Shown here piece after piece: positions 1,461-23,532 of a stretch of 32,974 nt of DNA. The notes below the pieces were generated by a model. It did no database searches and was not told the DNA's origin. It saw only the letters and a program-made list of their open reading frames with translations. A program made the position numbers and the translations under genes. Positions within the stretch are counted from its first letter, which is position 1. Each line of letters begins with the position of its first letter. The stretch is from Deltaproteobacteria bacterium (lineage in GTDB: Bacteria > Desulfobacterota > Deferrimicrobia > Deferrimicrobiales > Deferrimicrobiaceae), in the NCBI GenBank assembly GCA_025356865.1, contig JANXQJ010000110.1, forward strand, positions 1-32,974. Reading direction: 5' to 3'.

Positions 1461-2735
1461 TCAGAGTGCGACCTTGGGAAGATAGAGGTCGACCTCGATT
1501 GCGAACTGGGCGGGATCGACGGGACGCGCGATCGTCCGCCTGAATTTGGGGGAATCGGGGGCGGCAGGGTCGGTCAGGTCGACCTCGATGGGTACGGGCA
1601 TCCGCCGACGCTCGTCCTTGCACACCAGCATCACCTTGGGGCGAAGCACCTTGTCGTGATTGACCGAGACGACGATGCCGATCTCGGACGTATCGAGCTG
1701 GACGGTCGTCCCTATGGGGTAGATCCCCAGGCACTGGATGAAGCGCTGGGCGAATACCGGGTTGAAATCGGTCTTGCTCAATTCGAAGATGCGGCGGATC
1801 CCTTCGGGCGGCGTCATGGGGCGGCTGTAGACCCGGGTGGTCGTCATGGCGTCATAGGTGTCGGCGATCGCGGCGATCTGGGCGCAGCGGCTGATCGCCT
1901 CGCCCTTGAGCCCGTCGGGGTATCCGGTTCCGCCAAACCGCTCGTGGTGCTGCATCGCAACGGCCTTGGCCTCGTCGGTGATCCCCTCGGTCCGCTCCAG
2001 CACCTCGGCGCTGTAGAGGGCATGCTTCTTCATCTCGGCGAATTCGACGTCGGTCAGCTTGCCGGGCTTGTTGAGGATCGCGGGAGGAACCTTCATCTTG
2101 CCCGCGTCGTGCAGCATCGCCCCGATCCCCAGCGACTGGAGTTCTTCGCGGTCGAGTCCCAACTGACGCCCGAGCGTCAGGGAGAGGACGCAGACGTTCA
2201 CCGAGTGGACGAACGTGTACTCGTCGTACCCCTTGATCCGGGTGAGGCTGGAGAGCGCGTCCATGTTTCGGAAGATGCTGTCGATCATGTGGTTGACGGC
2301 CTTGACCGCCTTGCCGCTCTCGATGCTCTTCCCCATGCGGACGTTGTGCAGCACCTCGTTGACGACGGTGTGCGCCTCTTTCTGGGCGACCTTGGCGGCC
2401 TCGATCTCGACGTGGAACGGGATCTCTTCTTTCAGCGGCGCGGCCAGGTTCACCGGCAGGGGGGAGGCCCCGTCGGGCGTCGGGGCGAGAGTGTCCGCCA
2501 CTTCGATCATCGGATCGGGTTCCGGCCCGGGACCGTCCGGGCCGGCATCGACGTCGAGCCCCATATCCGTGTTGATGTAGAGTTCGGTGATGTTGTATTC
2601 CCGGAGCCGCTCGATGTGGGCCTGGGTGGTGATCTTCTTCCGGTTGGTCAGGAAGGGATGCTCGAGCCAGGAACGGTCCATCTTCTCGACGACCATGCCG
2701 AGCGTCAGTTCCCCGATGAGGATCTTCTTGAGCAT
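1461..2735 (-). CDS. HD-GYP domain cyclic-di-GMP phosphodiesterase with DUF3391-like N-terminus
   Basis: Predicted cytoplasmic phosphodiesterase that hydrolyses cyclic-di-GMP; 424 residues. The N-terminal about 60 residues resemble DUF3391, the small domain often found before HD-GYP. A Pro/Asp-rich linker follows at about 60-105. The HD-GYP domain lies at about 165-340: the HD dyad is in AMLHDAGK (H209-D210), and the second signature [14 protein letters not shown] is at 263-276 with an intact GYP. The C-terminal about 85 residues carry no motif I recognise. The gene begins 9 bases after the cheB stop and precedes the receptor gene, so it is probably co-transcribed with the chemotaxis genes. 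That suggests coupling of c-di-GMP turnover to taxis, which is inference; family membership is clear from both signatures. Confidence 0.93.
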
Positions 2736-15376: not shown

Positions 15377-15775
15377 TTATCCCCTGTCGCCGGAGGGGGG
15401 GGCGAGGGAACGGATGGCGCCGTCGAACCCGTCCCGAAGCGTGCCGAGAATGCGGGCGACGTCGTTCATGTTTTTTCCGGTGCGGCGGACGTTCGCCTGG
15501 GTCATGTGATCGATCATGAACAGGTACAGCTGCTGAAGATTCAAGGCGACCTCGCCCCCCACCTTCATGTCGAGGGTGGTCAGGAACTCGGTGACGATCG
15601 CCTGGCACTTGAGAAGATATTCGCGAAAACCGACCGTATCGCCGGCCTCGAGCCGGTTTGCGGAAGCGTTTGCGAAACCGATCGCGCCATCGAACAGCAT
15701 CAGTAGCAGCTTTTCCCGGGAGACCGTCCGCACGGTGGTCTGCTGATACTTGTTCAGGTTGGCCTGCATCTGCAT
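15377..15775 (-). CDS. fliS: FliS, flagellin export chaperone
   Basis: Binds the C-terminal helices of flagellin in the cytoplasm and keeps it unfolded for export. 132 residues, the normal length. The N-terminal NKYQQTTVRTVSREKLLLML and the following FDGAIGFANASANRLE are the hallmark FliS region, with the later LNLQQLYLFMIDHMTQAN helix conserved. A ribosome-binding site (GAGAGGATA) stands upstream of the ATG; a second ATG lies two codons in. It follows fliD by 52 bases and precedes the FliT-like gene. Confidence 0.97.
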   Translation of the reverse strand: MQMQANLNKYQQTTVRTVSREKLLLMLFDGAIGFANASANRLEAGDTVGFREYLLKCQAIVTEFLTTLDMKVGGEVALNLQQLYLFMIDHMTQANVRRTGKNMNDVARILGTLRDGFDGAIRSLAPPSGDRG

Positions 15776-15827: not shown

Positions 15828-17549
15828 CTAAAGCGAACCGAGCGTCCCGGCCTGGTTTTTCAGGGCACCGACCAGTCGTTCCATGTTCGCGTATTTTACC
15901 TTGAGCGACTGCTGGTACAACGAGACGGCCGCTTCCTTCTGGGTCACCATGGTATTGATGCCGGTGATCCTGGACTGGAGGCTTTTTTTCCGGTTGGCGA
16001 CGAGGCCGTCGACGGGCGACATCCATCGGTCGACCCGTTCGATGACCTGCGATGCGACGCCTTTCGTGCCTGTCGACAGGTTTTTCGTGAACAGGTCGAC
16101 GACCCCCTTGAAATCGGCCGTCATCGCCGCATCGAACTTCGCGGCGTCCATCGAGAGCGTCCGGTCCGCCTGGGTCTTGATGCCGACGCGCGACAGGGCC
16201 GTAAAATTGCCCCCGAGCCCGGAAACCGCGTTGACGAGGACGGAAGAGAGGGCATTCGACACGGTGGTGATCGCGATATCACCCTGCAGCGGGCCGGCTT
16301 TCTTCGTCGAGGCGTTGTAGGTCGAATTGGACTTGATGTAGCTTGCGAGGTCGTTGTAGGCCGTGATGAACGCCTGCACCTTGTTCCGGATCGCAGCGTT
16401 GTCCTTGGCCACGCCGATTGAAATCGTCGGCTTGGAGGCGGGGGCGTCCACCAGGTTCAGCGTGACTCCGGAGACCACATCGCTGATCACATTGGTTGAA
16501 CGCTTGATGCCGGTCATCCCGTCGATATCGATGATCGCATCCTGTGCGGTCTGGACGTTCGCGAACGACAAGGTCTTGGGATCCCCGGGGACGGTCGGCG
16601 TGTAGACGGCGCTGAATGCGGACACTTCCCCCATCCCCTTGCCGTTCAGCACCAGCGACCAGGAGGGCGCCACGGAAGTTCCGGAATTGATGAGGCTCGC
16701 GGAATAGGACGGGATTCCGCCGGCAAGCTTGCTTCCGGAAAGCTGGATCGCGCCATCGGTCCCGCCGGCTGCGTTGGTGTTGGTCATCCCGATCAGGTTT
16801 CCGGTGCTGCCCGCCGTGGTGGCCTTTACGGTGACGACGCTCCCGGAGGTGGTCATCGCCGAACCGGTTCCCGCGGAAGCGGCCGCCAGCCGGGAAGCGA
16901 TGGCGACGGTGGTCGCGCCATTGACGTTGACTCCGATATTGGTGCCCGAGTAGGCCCCGGCCGTGCTGTCGTAGAATTCGTAGGTCTTGCTGTCGATGGC
17001 CAGCTTGGTCCCGCTGGCGGGAACGGCCAGGAACGAGAGCGACCCGTAGGCCGTCGGGGTGGAATTGTTGATCTTGTCGCGGATCGCCGCCAGCGAATCG
17101 GTCGCCAGCAAGGAAACGTGGTTGACGGGGGTGGAGACGCCCGCCGCCGCGGCCGGAGTCAGGTCGAGGGTTCCCGCCAGCCCGAAAGGGTTGTCGGCGG
17201 AGACGGAAGTCTGGGTCGATTTGGAGGTCTGGCCGGCGGCCAACTGCTGGACGACGACCGTGTGGTTCCCCTCGGATGCGGCGGTCGATGCGGCCACGGT
17301 AATCACGTCGCTGCTGCTGGTGCTGGTCGAGAAGGCCGAGAATGAACTCGTCGATGCGAGCGACTGGGACGCGCTTCTCAAGGCGGTGAGTTTTGCTGCG
17401 AAATCGTCCATCCGCGTCAGGTTGGCCTGGAAGTCGGCCGCCTGATTCTGGAGAAGGACGATCGGTTGCCGCTTCGCCTCTACGAGCGCCGTGATGAGAC
17501 TCGATGAATCGATGCCGGAAGAGAGCCCGGAGAAATTGACATCGGCCAT
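15828..17549 (-). CDS. fliD: FliD, flagellar filament cap protein, with an inserted domain
   Basis: Caps the filament tip and promotes flagellin polymerisation. 573 residues, longer than many FliD proteins (about 450-500). FliD_N is at about 1-105 (FSGLSSGIDSSSLITALVEA). The C-terminal FliD domain is about 325-570, ending in a coiled coil (ITGINTMVTQKEAAVSLYQQ). The extra length lies mainly in residues 178-280 (16713-17017), a TYEFYD...NIGVNVNGATT...ASRLAAAS block that is clearly related to a block in FlgK. The central region is Ser/Thr/Ala/Gly-rich and would be surface-exposed. AAGGGG lies upstream of the ATG; the gene begins 4 bases after the flaG stop. Confidence 0.97.
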   Translation of the reverse strand: MADVNFSGLSSGIDSSSLITALVEAKRQPIVLLQNQAADFQANLTRMDDFAAKLTALRSASQSLASTSSFSAFSTSTSSSDVITVAASTAASEGNHTVVVQQLAAGQTSKSTQTSVSADNPFGLAGTLDLTPAAAAGVSTPVNHVSLLATDSLAAIRDKINNSTPTAYGSLSFLAVPASGTKLAIDSKTYEFYDSTAGAYSGTNIGVNVNGATTVAIASRLAAASAGTGSAMTTSGSVVTVKATTAGSTGNLIGMTNTNAAGGTDGAIQLSGSKLAGGIPSYSASLINSGTSVAPSWSLVLNGKGMGEVSAFSAVYTPTVPGDPKTLSFANVQTAQDAIIDIDGMTGIKRSTNVISDVVSGVTLNLVDAPASKPTISIGVAKDNAAIRNKVQAFITAYNDLASYIKSNSTYNASTKKAGPLQGDIAITTVSNALSSVLVNAVSGLGGNFTALSRVGIKTQADRTLSMDAAKFDAAMTADFKGVVDLFTKNLSTGTKGVASQVIERVDRWMSPVDGLVANRKKSLQSRITGINTMVTQKEAAVSLYQQSLKVKYANMERLVGALKNQAGTLGSL

Positions 17550-17553
17550 CTCG

Positions 17554-17946
17554 CTACCCCTTTTCGTTGACGATCATCCCTTTTTGAGACCTGAGATACT
17601 TCAACACTTCAATGACCGATTCGGGGGGATACTGCCGGACGACTTCGCCCGAATTCGCATCAAGCACCTTGGTGATGATCATCTTGAGATCCTTGTCGAG
17701 CGAGATGTCGAGCGTCGACGGGTTCTCCTTGAAGTGGCGCTGCACTTCCTCGGCGAGCCGTTCCATCTCTTTCGACTTCTCGACCGGCTGGACGGGTGTG
17801 ACAGCCGCAGGGGACGACTGGGAGGATCCGCCTACGATTCCCGACGTGCCGGAGACGGGTGCGACCGCTTCGTCCTTTTTCCGGGTCGGTGGCGCCGGAC
17901 GGTTATTCTCGATATCCGTGGCGGTGGTTATGGCCTGAATTTTCAT
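17554..17946 (-). CDS. flaG: FlaG family protein
   Basis: FlaG-type protein, commonly encoded between flagellin and fliD and linked to control of filament length; the exact role is not established. 130 residues. The N-terminal about 65 residues are low-complexity Pro/Ser/Val-rich. The C-terminal FlaG domain is clear: LDISLDKDLKMIITKVLDAN, then SGEVVRQYPPESVIEVLKYL. ATG 17946 is preferred over the in-frame GTG at 17955 because the AGGTGA ribosome-binding site would overlap the GTG. It is separated from fliC by a 14-bp hairpin. Confidence 0.93.
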   Translation of the reverse strand: MKIQAITTATDIENNRPAPPTRKKDEAVAPVSGTSGIVGGSSQSSPAAVTPVQPVEKSKEMERLAEEVQRHFKENPSTLDISLDKDLKMIITKVLDANSGEVVRQYPPESVIEVLKYLRSQKGMIVNEKG

Positions 17947-17965
17947 TTTCGTCACCTCATAGCGT

Positions 17966-18030: not shown

Positions 18031-18849
18031 TTACTTGAGGAGCGAAAGGGCGATCGAAGGCTGCTGGTTCGCCTGCGAAAGAACCGAGACACCGGCCTGC
18101 ACCAGGATCTGGTTGCGGGTGTAGGAGGCGGTTTCTTCGGCGACGTCCACGTCGCGGATACGCGAGTTGGCGGCCGTGGTGTTCTCGATGCTGACCGAGA
18201 GGTTCCGGATGACCGACTCGAGCCGGTTCTGGAGGGCGCCCAGGCTGCCACGCGCCGTGGTGACCGTGGAGATCGCTTTGTCGATCGTGTCCAGGACGGT
18301 CTGCGCCGCGCCGGCGGTATTAATGTCGCTCGTGCTGATGCTCAGCGTGCCGGTGGTAACGGCGGTGAGTCCGACGGAGAGCTGTTCGGACGAGCCGGTT
18401 CCGATCTGGAGCGAGATGCTCGTGACGCCGGAAGTCAGAAGCGCGGTGCCGTTGAACTTGGTGGCGTCCGAGATTCGACCGATTTCCGCGGTAAGTGCCG
18501 AGAACTCGGCGTTCAGGTTCTTGCGCTCGGTGTCGCCGATGTCGCCCGAGGAAGACTGGACCGCGAGTTCGCGCATGCGGCTGAGGCTGTTGGTGATTTC
18601 GACCAGGGCGCCTTCGGCCGTCGCCACGACGGAGATGCCGTTGGCGGCGTTGCGGGACGCCTGCCCGAGGCCGCGGATCTGGGCGCTGAGCTTTTCGGAA
18701 ATGGCCAGACCGGCTGCGTCGTCGGCGGCCTTGGTGATGCGCATGCCGGACGAGAGACGGGCGATGGAGGTCGAGAGGTTCGCCTGGGACATTTCGAGGT
18801 TCTTGCGGGCGGTGAGAGCTGCCAGGTTGCTGTTGATTACGACGGCCAT
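18031..18849 (-). CDS. fliC: FliC, flagellin
   Basis: Filament subunit of 272 residues, a short flagellin with intact D0/D1 ends and little D2/D3. The N-terminus (INSNLAALTARKNLEMSQAN ... SIARLSSGMRITKAADDAAG) and C-terminus (SYTRNQILVQAGVSVLSQAN, ending SIALSLLK) carry the conserved D0/D1 helices. The central part (about 140-195) is Ser/Thr-rich, a plausible site for O-glycosylation by the neighbouring glycosyltransferases. The start is secured by AAGGAGG 8 bases before the ATG. A sigma-28-type promoter lies about 160 bases upstream and the long leader has a CsrA-type hairpin. The fliW-csrA pair upstream and FliS downstream are its known partners. Confidence 0.98.
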   Translation of the reverse strand: MAVVINSNLAALTARKNLEMSQANLSTSIARLSSGMRITKAADDAAGLAISEKLSAQIRGLGQASRNAANGISVVATAEGALVEITNSLSRMRELAVQSSSGDIGDTERKNLNAEFSALTAEIGRISDATKFNGTALLTSGVTSISLQIGTGSSEQLSVGLTAVTTGTLSISTSDINTAGAAQTVLDTIDKAISTVTTARGSLGALQNRLESVIRNLSVSIENTTAANSRIRDVDVAEETASYTRNQILVQAGVSVLSQANQQPSIALSLLK

Positions 18850-18857
18850 GATATTAT

Positions 18858-18864
18858 CCTCCTT
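18858..18864 (-). promoter_or_regulatory. fliC ribosome-binding site, possible second CsrA site
   Basis: AAGGAGG at 8 bases before the fliC ATG, a near-perfect Shine-Dalgarno that fixes the start. It contains a GGA in the context CAAGGAGGAT, resembling the CsrA recognition sequence. CsrA bound here would block ribosome entry, as described for hag of Bacillus subtilis. Confidence 0.8.
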
Positions 18865-18874
18865 GATTTTTCCC

Positions 18875-18888
18875 GGGCATCCTTGCCC
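18875..18888 (-). promoter_or_regulatory. Candidate CsrA-binding hairpin in the fliC leader
   Basis: On the minus strand GGGC-AAGGAT-GCCC forms a 4-bp GC stem (extendable by two C-G pairs past an A/G mismatch) that presents AAGGAT in the loop. A GGA in a short hairpin loop is the classic high-affinity CsrA site. It lies 10 bases upstream of the Shine-Dalgarno, which holds further GGA motifs; six GGA motifs occur in the predicted leader. The csrA and fliW genes are about 1.2-1.9 kb upstream. CsrA control is inferred. Confidence 0.6.
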
Positions 18889-19008
18889 TGGGGTTCATGG
18901 TTGGTTGACGGATTCCGATCCCCATGAAAACCGGCTTTCGATTCGTCTGCGTCTGTGCCTCTTGAATCCCCCTTTCGTTTCGGCCTCTTGCATTTCCTTC
19001 TGTAATAC

Positions 19009-19058: not shown

Positions 19059-20054
19059 TCAGCTTTCCATTTCCCGGCGGCGGGAGAGGTCGGAAAGCTG
19101 CAGTTTCGAGATGTAGATCAGCAACCGCCGGTCGCAACCGTCGGCCAGGCGGGTGAATTCGAAACCGTACCTGAACCGGAACCGCGACTTGCTCTCGGAA
19201 AGCGACATTTCATAGACGCAGCGGGCCGCTCCCTCTATTGGAAGCAGGGTGCCGCCCTCGAGCCGGAACGAAGGCACTTCTTCCCCCGGCTTGAACCGGT
19301 CGGAGGTGGCCACCGAGAATCCTCCGGTGCTCACGTCGAGTACGTTCATGGCGGGCTGCCCGGAATCGCCGGCACGGCACGACACGGGCGCGGAGAGCGG
19401 CGGGTCAACCCGGTAGACGTCCCGTCGCTGCGTGAATCCGATCTCTTCCGGCAGCGCAAGCCGGTGGATGAAGGAACCGCGATCGGACTCTTCACCGCTC
19501 CAGGTGCACTCGAAATGATAAGGAACCCGCTGGTAAAGGTATTCGATCCGGACCGCGCTGGACGTTCGGAGCATGTCGTTGCCGACCGCCGGCGTCATCG
19601 GCTGGACCAGCAACTCTTTCCCGTTTTCCGTGATTGCGTCGGGATGGGACGAAAACTTGATGAAGTGGTCGTCGATCCAGACGAAGAGCGGAATCCGGTC
19701 TCCGATCACCCGGGCGAGGTGTTCCCTGACCGAACCGGGCGTCATCAGGCTCTCGATGAGGTACCGGGTGACGGATTCGGCCTCCCGGCGCCGGGCGGCC
19801 AACCGGGAGAAGATTTGCTGGATCCCGATCAGGACTGCGACGGTCAGCCCGCCCCACAACGCCGCTTCGGCGGTGAACACGGCTTTCTCTTCGGGCGGCA
19901 GCGGCTTGCCCGAATCGCGGACGACCTGCTCGTCGAGGGAACCCTGGAATTTCCGGACGCGATCCGCACGGGTATCGGCCTGCACCGGCGTGCACGGGAC
20001 CAGCAACAGCGCGAAGGCGACGACCAGGGCGGCGGCGCCGGACAGGATCCGCAT
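19059..20054 (-). CDS. Membrane-anchored PilZ (YcgR-like) c-di-GMP receptor
   Basis: 331 residues. A hydrophobic N-terminus (1-26, ending VQA) looks like a signal peptide. A short, probably periplasmic stretch leads to a membrane segment at about 63-83, followed by SRLAARRR (positive-inside), which places the rest in the cytoplasm. Residues about 95-200 resemble a YcgR-type N-terminal domain. The PilZ domain (about 208-325) has RDVYR (211-215, the RxxxR motif) and DVSTGG (240-245, the D/NxSxxG motif), so c-di-GMP binding is expected. It lies 2 bases after fliW and before the fliC promoter. A flagellar-brake role is inferred from the family and location; membrane anchoring is unusual for YcgR. 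Confidence 0.87.
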   Translation of the reverse strand: MRILSGAAALVVAFALLLVPCTPVQADTRADRVRKFQGSLDEQVVRDSGKPLPPEEKAVFTAEAALWGGLTVAVLIGIQQIFSRLAARRREAESVTRYLIESLMTPGSVREHLARVIGDRIPLFVWIDDHFIKFSSHPDAITENGKELLVQPMTPAVGNDMLRTSSAVRIEYLYQRVPYHFECTWSGEESDRGSFIHRLALPEEIGFTQRRDVYRVDPPLSAPVSCRAGDSGQPAMNVLDVSTGGFSVATSDRFKPGEEVPSFRLEGGTLLPIEGAARCVYEMSLSESKSRFRFRYGFEFTRLADGCDRRLLIYISKLQLSDLSRRREMES

Positions 20055-20771: not shown

Positions 20772-21701
20772 TTACCGTTTTACCGCATCGAGGACGGTCA
20801 TCGAGGTGATCCGGCCCGCAACCTGGATGGAGGCGCTGAGCACCGCCTCCTGCTTCGCGAGGTCGATGGCCATCTGGGCGATATCGAGATCCTGAATGTC
20901 GGACAACTGGGCCGTGAGACTCGTCGACAGGTTGAGCAGCGACGAGTCGGTCACCCCCATGTGCTTGGTGCGTGTCCCGACCGAGGCCTGGCTCTGGACG
21001 ACCTTGGCCTGCCCCAGGTCCATGGCGTCGATCGTCTTCTGGATACCCGACACGTCGTTGTTTTCGAGTGCGGCCCGGAACTGCGCCAGGTCTTCCATGA
21101 TGGAGCTTCCGGAGACATACGTGGCCGGCGGGGCCGGCGGGACGGTCCCGACCGTGACCCGGTTTCCGAATACGTTGCTCCCGATCTCGTTGATCTGCAT
21201 CTTTTCGCTCTGGCCGATCCGGACGAGCCGGGTGCCGGCGTCACCCTGCCAGACTCCGTCGTCGGTGTAAGCCGCCGTGTCGCTCTTGAAACCTGAAAAT
21301 ATGTATTCGCCGCCCAGCTTGGTATTGGCGTAGCCGACCGCCTGCTTGAACAGTTCGTTGACCTCGGCCGCCGCGGCTTTCCGGTCGGAAGCGCTGACCT
21401 CGCCGTTCGCCATCTGGATCGCCAGTTCCTTGGCGCGAACCAGCGTGTCGTTGATGCCGTTGAGCGCGTTCTCGGTCAGGTCGAGCGACGCCTTGCCGAA
21501 CAGGATGTTCCGCTTGAACTGGGAGACTTCGGACTGCCCGGTCTTGATCTGGGACGCCTTCTCGGAGGATCTCGGGTCGTCGGAGAGGTATATCAGGCGC
21601 CGGTTCTCGGCGATCTTCTGCTGGACATTGAAAAGAGTCGACCGGTTGTCCATCACGGAGTTGCGAACCGAGTCGTAGATGATCTTTTCGGTTATGCGCA
21701 C
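20772..21701 (-). CDS. flgL: FlgL, hook-filament junction protein
   Basis: Second junction protein between hook and filament (HAP3); 309 residues. Flagellin-like terminal helices: MRITEKIIYDSVRNSVMDNR, LSDDPRSSEKASQIK, and the C-terminal LDIAQMAIDLAKQEAVLSAS. The central part has LGGEYIFSGFKSDTAAYT, typical of FlgL. It starts with GTG at 21701, supported by GGAGGA 6 bases upstream, and follows flgK by 10 bases. It does not contain the insertion shared by FlgK and FliD. Confidence 0.96.
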   Translation of the reverse strand: MRITEKIIYDSVRNSVMDNRSTLFNVQQKIAENRRLIYLSDDPRSSEKASQIKTGQSEVSQFKRNILFGKASLDLTENALNGINDTLVRAKELAIQMANGEVSASDRKAAAAEVNELFKQAVGYANTKLGGEYIFSGFKSDTAAYTDDGVWQGDAGTRLVRIGQSEKMQINEIGSNVFGNRVTVGTVPPAPPATYVSGSSIMEDLAQFRAALENNDVSGIQKTIDAMDLGQAKVVQSQASVGTRTKHMGVTDSSLLNLSTSLTAQLSDIQDLDIAQMAIDLAKQEAVLSASIQVAGRITSMTVLDAVKR

Positions 21702-21711
21702 GACAGTCCTC

Positions 21712-23532
21712 CTACGTGCTCTTCATCGTGATGATCGTGTTGAGCAACTGGTCGATGATCGAGATCATCTTGGTCGACGCCTCGAACGCCCGCTGGAACT
21801 TGATGAGATTGGTCATCTCCTCGTCGAGGGAAACACCCGAGACCTCGGAACGCCGCGTTTCGAGGTTGTCGACGATCACCTTCTGGTGCTTGAGGTCGAG
21901 ATCGACGCCCTTGGTTTCGGAGCCGATCTGGCCGATCATCCCGGCGATGAAGTCGGGAAGCGTGCTTCCGTCCTTAAGATATGACACCTTGACGTTGCCC
22001 TGGCCGGAAAGAAGCAGTGCATTCCGGTTGTCGCCGACGGGCGGAGGCGGGGCAGGAAAATCGACCCCGCCCGAAAACGTGTTCCCGGAGAGGTGGATGG
22101 CCTTCGTCGGATCGTTGCCTGCCGTGGACATCGCGATCGCGTTCCCGGCGAGGCCGTCGGCGGTCGCGACCGCCAGCAGGAGGCCGCCCCGCGCCTGGAG
22201 GGTGTAGTTGGCGCCGACGGATGCGGCCGCCACCCGGCTTGCGACGTCGGCGGCCGTCCGGGCGCCGTTGAGGTCGACGCCGACGTTTGCGCCGACGTAG
22301 GCCGCGACCGAGTTGTCGTAGAAGTCGTAGGTGTCCGCGCCGATCGTGATGCCCGGTGCGGGCGCCGCCGTGACGGTGGGAACCCCGGTGAACACGACGC
22401 TGCCCGACCCCTTGGTCGCGCCGCCCGCGGCGACCTTGCTGATGTCGTTGAGCACCGATGCGTCGACCTGGAAGTTCGATGCCGCGTTCTTGAGCTCCTG
22501 GAGCGGCGCGAAGAAGGCGTTGCCGGTCGTTGCGACGGGAGGCGTCCCGGTCGAGACGCCGTAGCCGACGACGTGCGTCGCGTTGACCTGGTTGGTGATG
22601 GCATAGGCGAGCTGGTCGATCCGGTCGCGAACGGTGTTGATGTAGCCGTCACGAAAGGAGATGGCCGAGGCGAGCTGCCCGCCCTTTATATCGCTTGTGA
22701 TCGCATCCCACTGGTTGATGTCGCCTTTTTGTCCGGGCAGCTGGATCTTGACGTCGTAAAGCAGGTCGGGCGTGGTCGTGTTGATATCGGTGTAGAGCTT
22801 CCCGTAATTCTCGCCGTCGACCAACGCACGCCCCTTGCCGACATAGAGGTTCACCTGCCCGTAGTCGTCGGTGATGGTCGTGAAGCCGATCTTCTGGCCG
22901 AGCTGCCTGAGCAATTCGCCGCGCTGGTCGAGCAGGTCGTTCGGCGACTGCCCCTGGGCGATATTGATCTTGATGCTGCCGTTGAGCTTCGCGACCTGCG
23001 CCACGAGCTGGTTGACCTCGGAGACGAGCGACTGGACGTCCTTGTTGGCGTTTTCCTTCAGCGTGGCGACCTGCTGGTCGACGCGCCGGAATTCGGAGGT
23101 GAGCAGCTCGGCCGTCGAGACGACGGTCTGGCGCTCGGCAGTCCCCTGCGGGTTGACCGACAGGTCGTCCCACGCGTGGTAAAACTCGTTGACCCGGTCG
23201 GCGAGACTCGCCCCGTTGTTGTCGTTGAAGATCGCCTCGACCTGCCCCACGGACTTGGCCGTGTAGTCGAGCCCGCTGTAGGTGCTGTTCTCGGTGATGA
23301 GCTGCTTCTCGGTGAACGCGTCGACACTGCGCCGGATCTCGACGACTTGGGAACCCATCCCGAGCTGGCCGGGGTTGAAGGTCATCGCCGAGGACTCGGT
23401 GACGATCGCATCCTGCCGCGAATAGCCGGGGGTATTGGCGTTGGCGACGTTGTGACTGGTCACCTGCAACGCCATCTGGTTGGTGTAGAGCGCCTTGCGG
23501 GCGATCTCCATCGCCAAGTAGATTCCGGGCAT
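21712..23532 (-). CDS. flgK: FlgK, hook-filament junction protein, with an inserted domain
   Basis: First junction protein (HAP1); 606 residues, longer than many FlgK proteins (about 450-550). The N-terminal rod-type motif is LYTNQMALQVTSHNVANANT, followed by PGYSRQ; the C-terminal D0 helix is DEEMTNLIKFQRAFEASTKM. Residues 392-491 (22060-22359) form an inserted block (TYDFYD...NVGVDLNGART...VASRVAAAS) that matches residues 178-280 of FliD in this window. AAAGGCGG lies upstream of the ATG; it follows flgN by 15 bases and precedes flgL. Confidence 0.97.
   Translation of the reverse strand: MPGIYLAMEIARKALYTNQMALQVTSHNVANANTPGYSRQDAIVTESSAMTFNPGQLGMGSQVVEIRRSVDAFTEKQLITENSTYSGLDYTAKSVGQVEAIFNDNNGASLADRVNEFYHAWDDLSVNPQGTAERQTVVSTAELLTSEFRRVDQQVATLKENANKDVQSLVSEVNQLVAQVAKLNGSIKINIAQGQSPNDLLDQRGELLRQLGQKIGFTTITDDYGQVNLYVGKGRALVDGENYGKLYTDINTTTPDLLYDVKIQLPGQKGDINQWDAITSDIKGGQLASAISFRDGYINTVRDRIDQLAYAITNQVNATHVVGYGVSTGTPPVATTGNAFFAPLQELKNAASNFQVDASVLNDISKVAAGGATKGSGSVVFTGVPTVTAAPAPGITIGADTYDFYDNSVAAYVGANVGVDLNGARTAADVASRVAAASVGANYTLQARGGLLLAVATADGLAGNAIAMSTAGNDPTKAIHLSGNTFSGGVDFPAPPPPVGDNRNALLLSGQGNVKVSYLKDGSTLPDFIAGMIGQIGSETKGVDLDLKHQKVIVDNLETRRSEVSGVSLDEEMTNLIKFQRAFEASTKMISIIDQLLNTIITMKST

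Follow-up and report, generated by a model that had tools for sequence, protein, structure and literature searches.

Control of flagellin production by CsrA through two sites in the mRNA leader is a known principle, also in diderms, and has been described in Campylobacter jejuni and Bacillus subtilis. The hag leader of B. subtilis, a member of a monoderm phylum, contains two CsrA sites, one of them over the Shine-Dalgarno sequence; csrA adjoins fliW, and Hag, FliW, and CsrA form a partner switch (PMC7652899). In the diderm C. jejuni, which possesses FliW, the flaA leader contains two stem-loops whose loops carry ANGGA; the second covers the ribosome-binding site, compensatory changes are found in other Campylobacter, and repression by CsrA is antagonized by FliW (PMC4894983). 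The glgC leader of Escherichia coli is similar in that a GGA in a hairpin loop lies just before the Shine-Dalgarno GGA and one CsrA dimer bridges the two; however, the target gene is a different one, and CsrA is controlled by the CsrB/C sRNAs, not by FliW (PMC7652899). The desulfuromonad Geobacter sulfurreducens has a FliW that binds CsrA via N55, but flagellin and its leader were outside the scope of the study describing this interaction (PMC13407953). FliW and BarA-UvrY are anti-correlated (PMC4682653), and a CsrA-FliW-flagellin system would be expected to lack CsrB/C-type antagonist RNAs.

The window, the whole stretch of 32,974 nucleotides that we analyzed, contains a block of flagellar genes on the minus strand. 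In the order of transcription these are flgK, flgL, csrA, fliW, a PilZ-domain gene, fliC, flaG, fliD, and fliS (Table 1). The csrA gene, present as a single copy in the genome, overlaps fliW by 11 bases. An earlier, sequence-only reading of this DNA had placed the genes for CsrA and FliW upstream and the gene for FliS downstream of fliC; the coordinates agree with this, with the qualification that the PilZ-domain gene intervenes between fliW and fliC. The PilZ-domain protein is possibly a motility regulator linked to c-di-GMP. Whereas the flaA leader of C. jejuni is only 45 nt long and fliW lies apart from csrA (PMC4894983), the leader in the window measures about 150 nt and carries an additional upstream box, and the overlapping csrA-fliW pair is located about 1.2 kb upstream of fliC. 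In contrast to hag, the flagellin gene in the window is followed by flaG, fliD, and fliS. The sequence-only reading had further seen an arrangement like that of B. subtilis in a diderm. The two-site control implied by this comparison is supported by our analyses, but a diderm case was already known from flaA of C. jejuni (PMC4894983).

Table 1. Features of the flagellar block and of the fliC leader (positions in the window).
Feature	Position	Strand	Basis or remark
flgK	21712-23532	-	
flgL	20772-21701	-	flagellin-like N-terminal domain and place after flgK
csrA, 76 aa	20496-20726	-	PF02599, 82 bits
fliW, 149 aa	20057-20506	-	PF02623, 114 bits
PilZ-domain gene	19059-20054	-	sits between fliW and fliC
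sigma28-type flagellar promoter, TAAAGT-N15-CCGATAA	19036-19009	-	sequence pattern
fliC leader (5' UTR), about 150 nt	18850-19003	-	promoter position and fliC start codon; transcript start predicted
upstream Shine-Dalgarno-like box, AAAGGGGG	18975-18968	-	about 28-30 nt downstream of the predicted start; not followed by a start codon
mid-leader helix, UUCAUGG/CCAUGAA, two GGA in the loop	18894-18928	-	pairing probability about 0.6; weak evidence
SL1, CsrA-type hairpin, GGGC-AAGGAU-GCCC	18888-18875	-	folding; covariation in relatives
SL2, hairpin, AUC-AAGGAG-GAU, Shine-Dalgarno inside the hexaloop	18867-18856	-	covariation in relatives
fliC, flagellin of 272 aa, presumed target of the control	18031-18849	-	PF00669 Flagellin_N and PF00700 Flagellin_C
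flaG	17554-17955	-	
fliD	15828-17549	-	
fliS, flagellin export chaperone	15377-15775	-	PF02561, TIGR00208

The promoter pattern upstream of fliC is matched exactly at four places in the 2.8 Mb genome and the reversed control pattern at none, and similar sigma28-type sites precede the flagellin genes of many relatives. Judged from the promoter position, transcription should begin near 19003 and the leader should measure about 150 nt, so that the start and leader length proposed earlier are well supported. The hairpin SL1, also proposed earlier, lies exactly where it had been placed; its four pairs have a probability of 1.0 in the folded leader, and the stem can be extended by CCC/GGG (18892-18890 with 18874-18872). 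Four G-C pairs around a hexaloop with GGA are found in 0.34% of dinucleotide-shuffled leaders. The second hairpin, SL2, is absent from the sequence-only reading. In the window it has only three pairs, with a pairing probability of about 0.25 when folded without the relatives. This weak stem is in line with the ligands selected by CsrA in SELEX experiments, which have a six-base loop and mostly no more than four contiguous pairs (PMC7652899). The first G of the GGA in SL1 is 20 nt from the first G of the GGA in SL2; a CsrA dimer can span distances of 10 to 63 nt between its sites and does so best above 18 nt (PMC7652899). One predicted CsrA site would hence lie in the loop of a hairpin and another, at bridging distance, on the Shine-Dalgarno sequence, and the hexaloops, short stems, and spacing fit both the SELEX and the bridging rules (PMC7652899).

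The leader contains eight GGA motifs (18850-19002), rather than the six counted earlier; however, dinucleotide-shuffled leaders have 7.6 on average (P 0.53), and since the number equals the shuffle expectation it carries no evidential weight and was dropped. The stability of the whole leader was dropped as well: the entire leader folds no better than its shuffles (z -0.33). With both the GGA count and the overall folding at shuffle level, the case rests on the comparison with relatives. The mid-leader helix may represent a third CsrA site; its inverted repeat is also present in the close relative L005, and L006 perhaps has CCGG/CCGG.

We searched for flagellin genes in 59 near relatives, 247 genomes drawn evenly from the phylum, and a set of named genomes, and extracted their leaders. 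SL1 is identical letter for letter in L005 (91% protein identity) and L006 (about 70%). In more distant relatives the loop ANGGAN remains constant while the letters of the stem change in step, giving rise to GGGC/GCCC, CGGC/GCCG, UGGC/GCCA, GGUC/GACC, GGCC/GGUC, CGAC/GUCG, GGCU/AGCC, and GGGA/UCCC. The forms of SL2 include AAUC-AAGGAG-GAUU, UUUC-AAGGAG-GAAA, UUAC-AAGGAG-GUAA, and CACU-AAGGAG-GGUA, among others. The choice of leaders was blind to pairing, in that the nearest GGA outside the Shine-Dalgarno sequence at 29-48 nt was taken whatever its surroundings. For the subset of 65 leaders from phylum relatives (alignment A1), RNAalifold predicted both hairpins unprompted. Across the two hairpins 84.6% of the cells in this alignment are paired, as compared to 59.6% after shuffling and at most 51% after sliding; changes on both sides of a pair number 124 versus 44 in the shuffled alignment, and the covariation score of 0.54 (versus 0.16 shuffled) was reached by none of 500 shuffles. 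Five pairs of SL1 covary among the 65 relatives, which answers the earlier suggestion to check the conservation of this hairpin: it is kept, with a covarying stem. For SL2, 89% of the cells are paired in the relatives and three pairs have changed on both sides. These comparisons show that two predicted, covarying hairpins with ANGGAN hexaloops are conserved throughout the phylum and beyond.

The distribution of the hairpin pair among genes points in the same direction. Under strict hexaloop rules, both hairpins are present in 47.5% of 40 flagellin genes from the phylum and 16.5% of 79 other flagellin genes; among non-flagellin genes with a GGAG Shine-Dalgarno sequence at the same loci, they occur in none of 85 from the phylum and none of 300 others. 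A covariance model of both hairpins trained on the phylum leaders (R1) finds a single significant match in the genome itself, the fliC leader (E 7.3e-12); the next match has an E of 0.45, and further strong sites are lacking there, the remaining matches being chance-like at E 0.45 or worse. Outside its training set, R1 marks flagellin starts in the Bdellovibrio group (best E 4.5e-8), with part of the score contributed by the Shine-Dalgarno sequence and the start codon. The flagellin genes of two genomes from the phylum, G040 and G192, are missed by R1, yet a variant hairpin pair is visible by eye. By sequence comparison, the hairpin pair is thus nearly restricted to flagellin genes. Rfam has no family for a two-hairpin flagellin leader; no Rfam model, those of CsrB/C-type antagonist RNAs included, matches at gathering score within the window, and the leader gives only chance matches at low score. 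A literature search limited to papers accessible without subscription found no description of this leader in the phylum or in its Bdellovibrio relatives.

The leader also tracks the genes for its presumed regulators. In a set of 79 genomes screened for FliW, CsrA, and R1 (with a match taken as roughly 18 bits or more), about 50 of the 64 with csrA and fliW have a match at a flagellin start, versus 2 of the 15 that lack fliW, 14 of which also lack csrA (Fisher P 5e-6 from a hand tally that ignores kinship). The two exceptional genomes, G069 and G290, carry the two-hairpin leader while csrA and fliW went undetected; these may be incomplete assemblies with missing contigs, or cases of recent loss. 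Conversely, about ten genomes labeled as Myxococcales or Deltaproteobacteria have csrA and fliW without a leader of the SL1/SL2 form, and this form is mostly absent from Myxococcales-type genomes that have both genes. An in-frame TGA seen in the fliW of three relatives proved to be an ordinary C-terminal stop in L226, the one inspected. The FliW encoded in the window matches the FliW chain of the solved FliW-CsrA complex (5dmb, 5e-21). The best PDB matches of its CsrA are CsrA/RsmA, and L4, R44, N55, and the C-terminal extension are all present in this protein of 76 aa. L4 is an RNA-contact residue of CsrA. R44 likewise contacts RNA (PMC7652899), and N55 is needed for the binding of FliW in G. 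sulfurreducens and B. subtilis (PMC13407953).

Taken as a whole, the covariation, the near-specificity for flagellin, the co-occurrence with csrA and fliW, and the contact residues of CsrA make two-site control of flagellin translation by CsrA the best reading of these sequences, and we consider it highly likely that the fliC leader is the two-site platform of a CsrA-FliW-flagellin homeostasis loop. CsrA very probably grips SL1 and SL2 and thereby shuts off flagellin production. One surface of the dimer would hold the high-affinity loop of SL1, and the dimer would reach across 20 nt to SL2, where the GGA is that of the Shine-Dalgarno sequence itself; with this sequence occupied, the ribosome would be unable to start fliC. 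FliW, the product of the neighboring overlapping gene, would remove CsrA from the RNA. As unsecreted flagellin would in turn titrate FliW, flagellin would keep its own production repressed until export had started. The binding and repression by CsrA, and the contacts of FliW with CsrA and with flagellin, are steps that we infer.

An alternative explanation is that the conserved hairpins act without CsrA as a passive element for translation or stability, for example as a barrier to RNases together with an exposed Shine-Dalgarno sequence. The location of SL1 directly before the Shine-Dalgarno sequence, the weakness of SL2 when folded alone, and the two genomes in which the leader is found and csrA and fliW are not would all be compatible with such an element. 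However, a loop that remains fixed as ANGGAN while its stem drifts is expected of CsrA sites and not of an ordinary stem, the leader and the two genes csrA and fliW tend to occur in the same genomes, and in the window both genes lie near fliC; this explanation is therefore improbable. A different role for CsrA itself is slightly less probable still. CsrA stabilizes the flhDC mRNA in E. coli. Protection of the fliC mRNA by CsrA is possible in principle, and the long leader provides several GGA sites, including one near the 5' end at 18997; but one of the covarying sites is the Shine-Dalgarno sequence itself, which points to occlusion of the ribosome, and both of the studied flagellin leaders with such sites are repressed (PMC7652899, PMC4894983). 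The notion that the hairpin and the GGA motifs arose by chance in a leader rich in G accounts for the shuffle-level GGA count and folding, but is refuted by the covariation in 65 relatives, the absence of the hairpin pair from 385 other genes, and the detection by R1 of flagellin leaders in other groups, and deserves hardly any credence.

If the hairpins are the sites of repression by CsrA, then covariation, and not the counting of motifs, suggests that two-hairpin control of flagellin reaches through this phylum into Bdellovibrio-type bacteria. This reach would fit the view that flagellin control is the old function of CsrA and FliW. The R1 model could serve for the annotation of flagellin leaders.

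The leaders contain a second conserved element, which is absent from the sequence-only reading. At a distance of about 30 nt from the presumed transcript start and about 110 nt from the gene that follows, the phylum consensus shows a Shine-Dalgarno-like box, GAAAGG[A/G]GGUGA. Complementarity to the anti-Shine-Dalgarno sequence scores at least 16 in 44% of 104 flagellin leaders from the phylum versus 4.7% of shuffles, and a high score is likewise reached in 47.5% of flagellin leaders versus 11% of other genes; the box in the window (AAAGGGGG) is a shorter, weaker wobble version with a score of 15. A role as the Shine-Dalgarno sequence of a leader peptide was considered and rejected, as a start codon follows in 10 of 57 cases, no excess over the 23% of the control. 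A plain CsrA site would not explain the box well either: 6 of 58 boxes lack GGA, and the match runs along the complement of the anti-Shine-Dalgarno sequence. The closest parallel is the STAB-SD of the cry3A mRNA, which also resembles a Shine-Dalgarno sequence, lies close to the 5' end of a leader of about 130 nt, and starts no translation; the 30S subunit at this site blocks RNase J (PMC4113751). The STAB-SD was, however, described in Gram-positives, and the window has only the wobble version of the box. RNase J is present in the genome (TIGR00649, 506 bits, cut-off 400). A function as a STAB-SD-like element is a guess based on this analogy. We propose only tentatively, and with more doubt than conviction, that the flagellin leaders of the phylum combine two opposing modules, a STAB-SD-like docking site for 30S subunits near the 5' end that would stabilize an abundant mRNA, and, at the genuine Shine-Dalgarno sequence, a bridge formed by CsrA. 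If so, the flagellin mRNA would be stored intact but silent until freed by FliW. The conserved box provides a separate lead on the stability of flagellin mRNAs.

Two further occurrences of such hairpins were observed. On contig C104 of the same genome, an exact GGGC-AUGGAU-GCCC lies near an R1 match (1479-1570, minus strand, of L217) without a convincing gene start, and is possibly another CsrA site or a product of chance. In the relative G175, the two-hairpin arrangement is also found before a small FliS-like gene that adjoins flagellin (L215, 165-229, plus strand), where GCGUUC-AGGGAA-GAACGC is followed by AAC-AAGGAG-GUU, hinting at control of a chaperone by CsrA.
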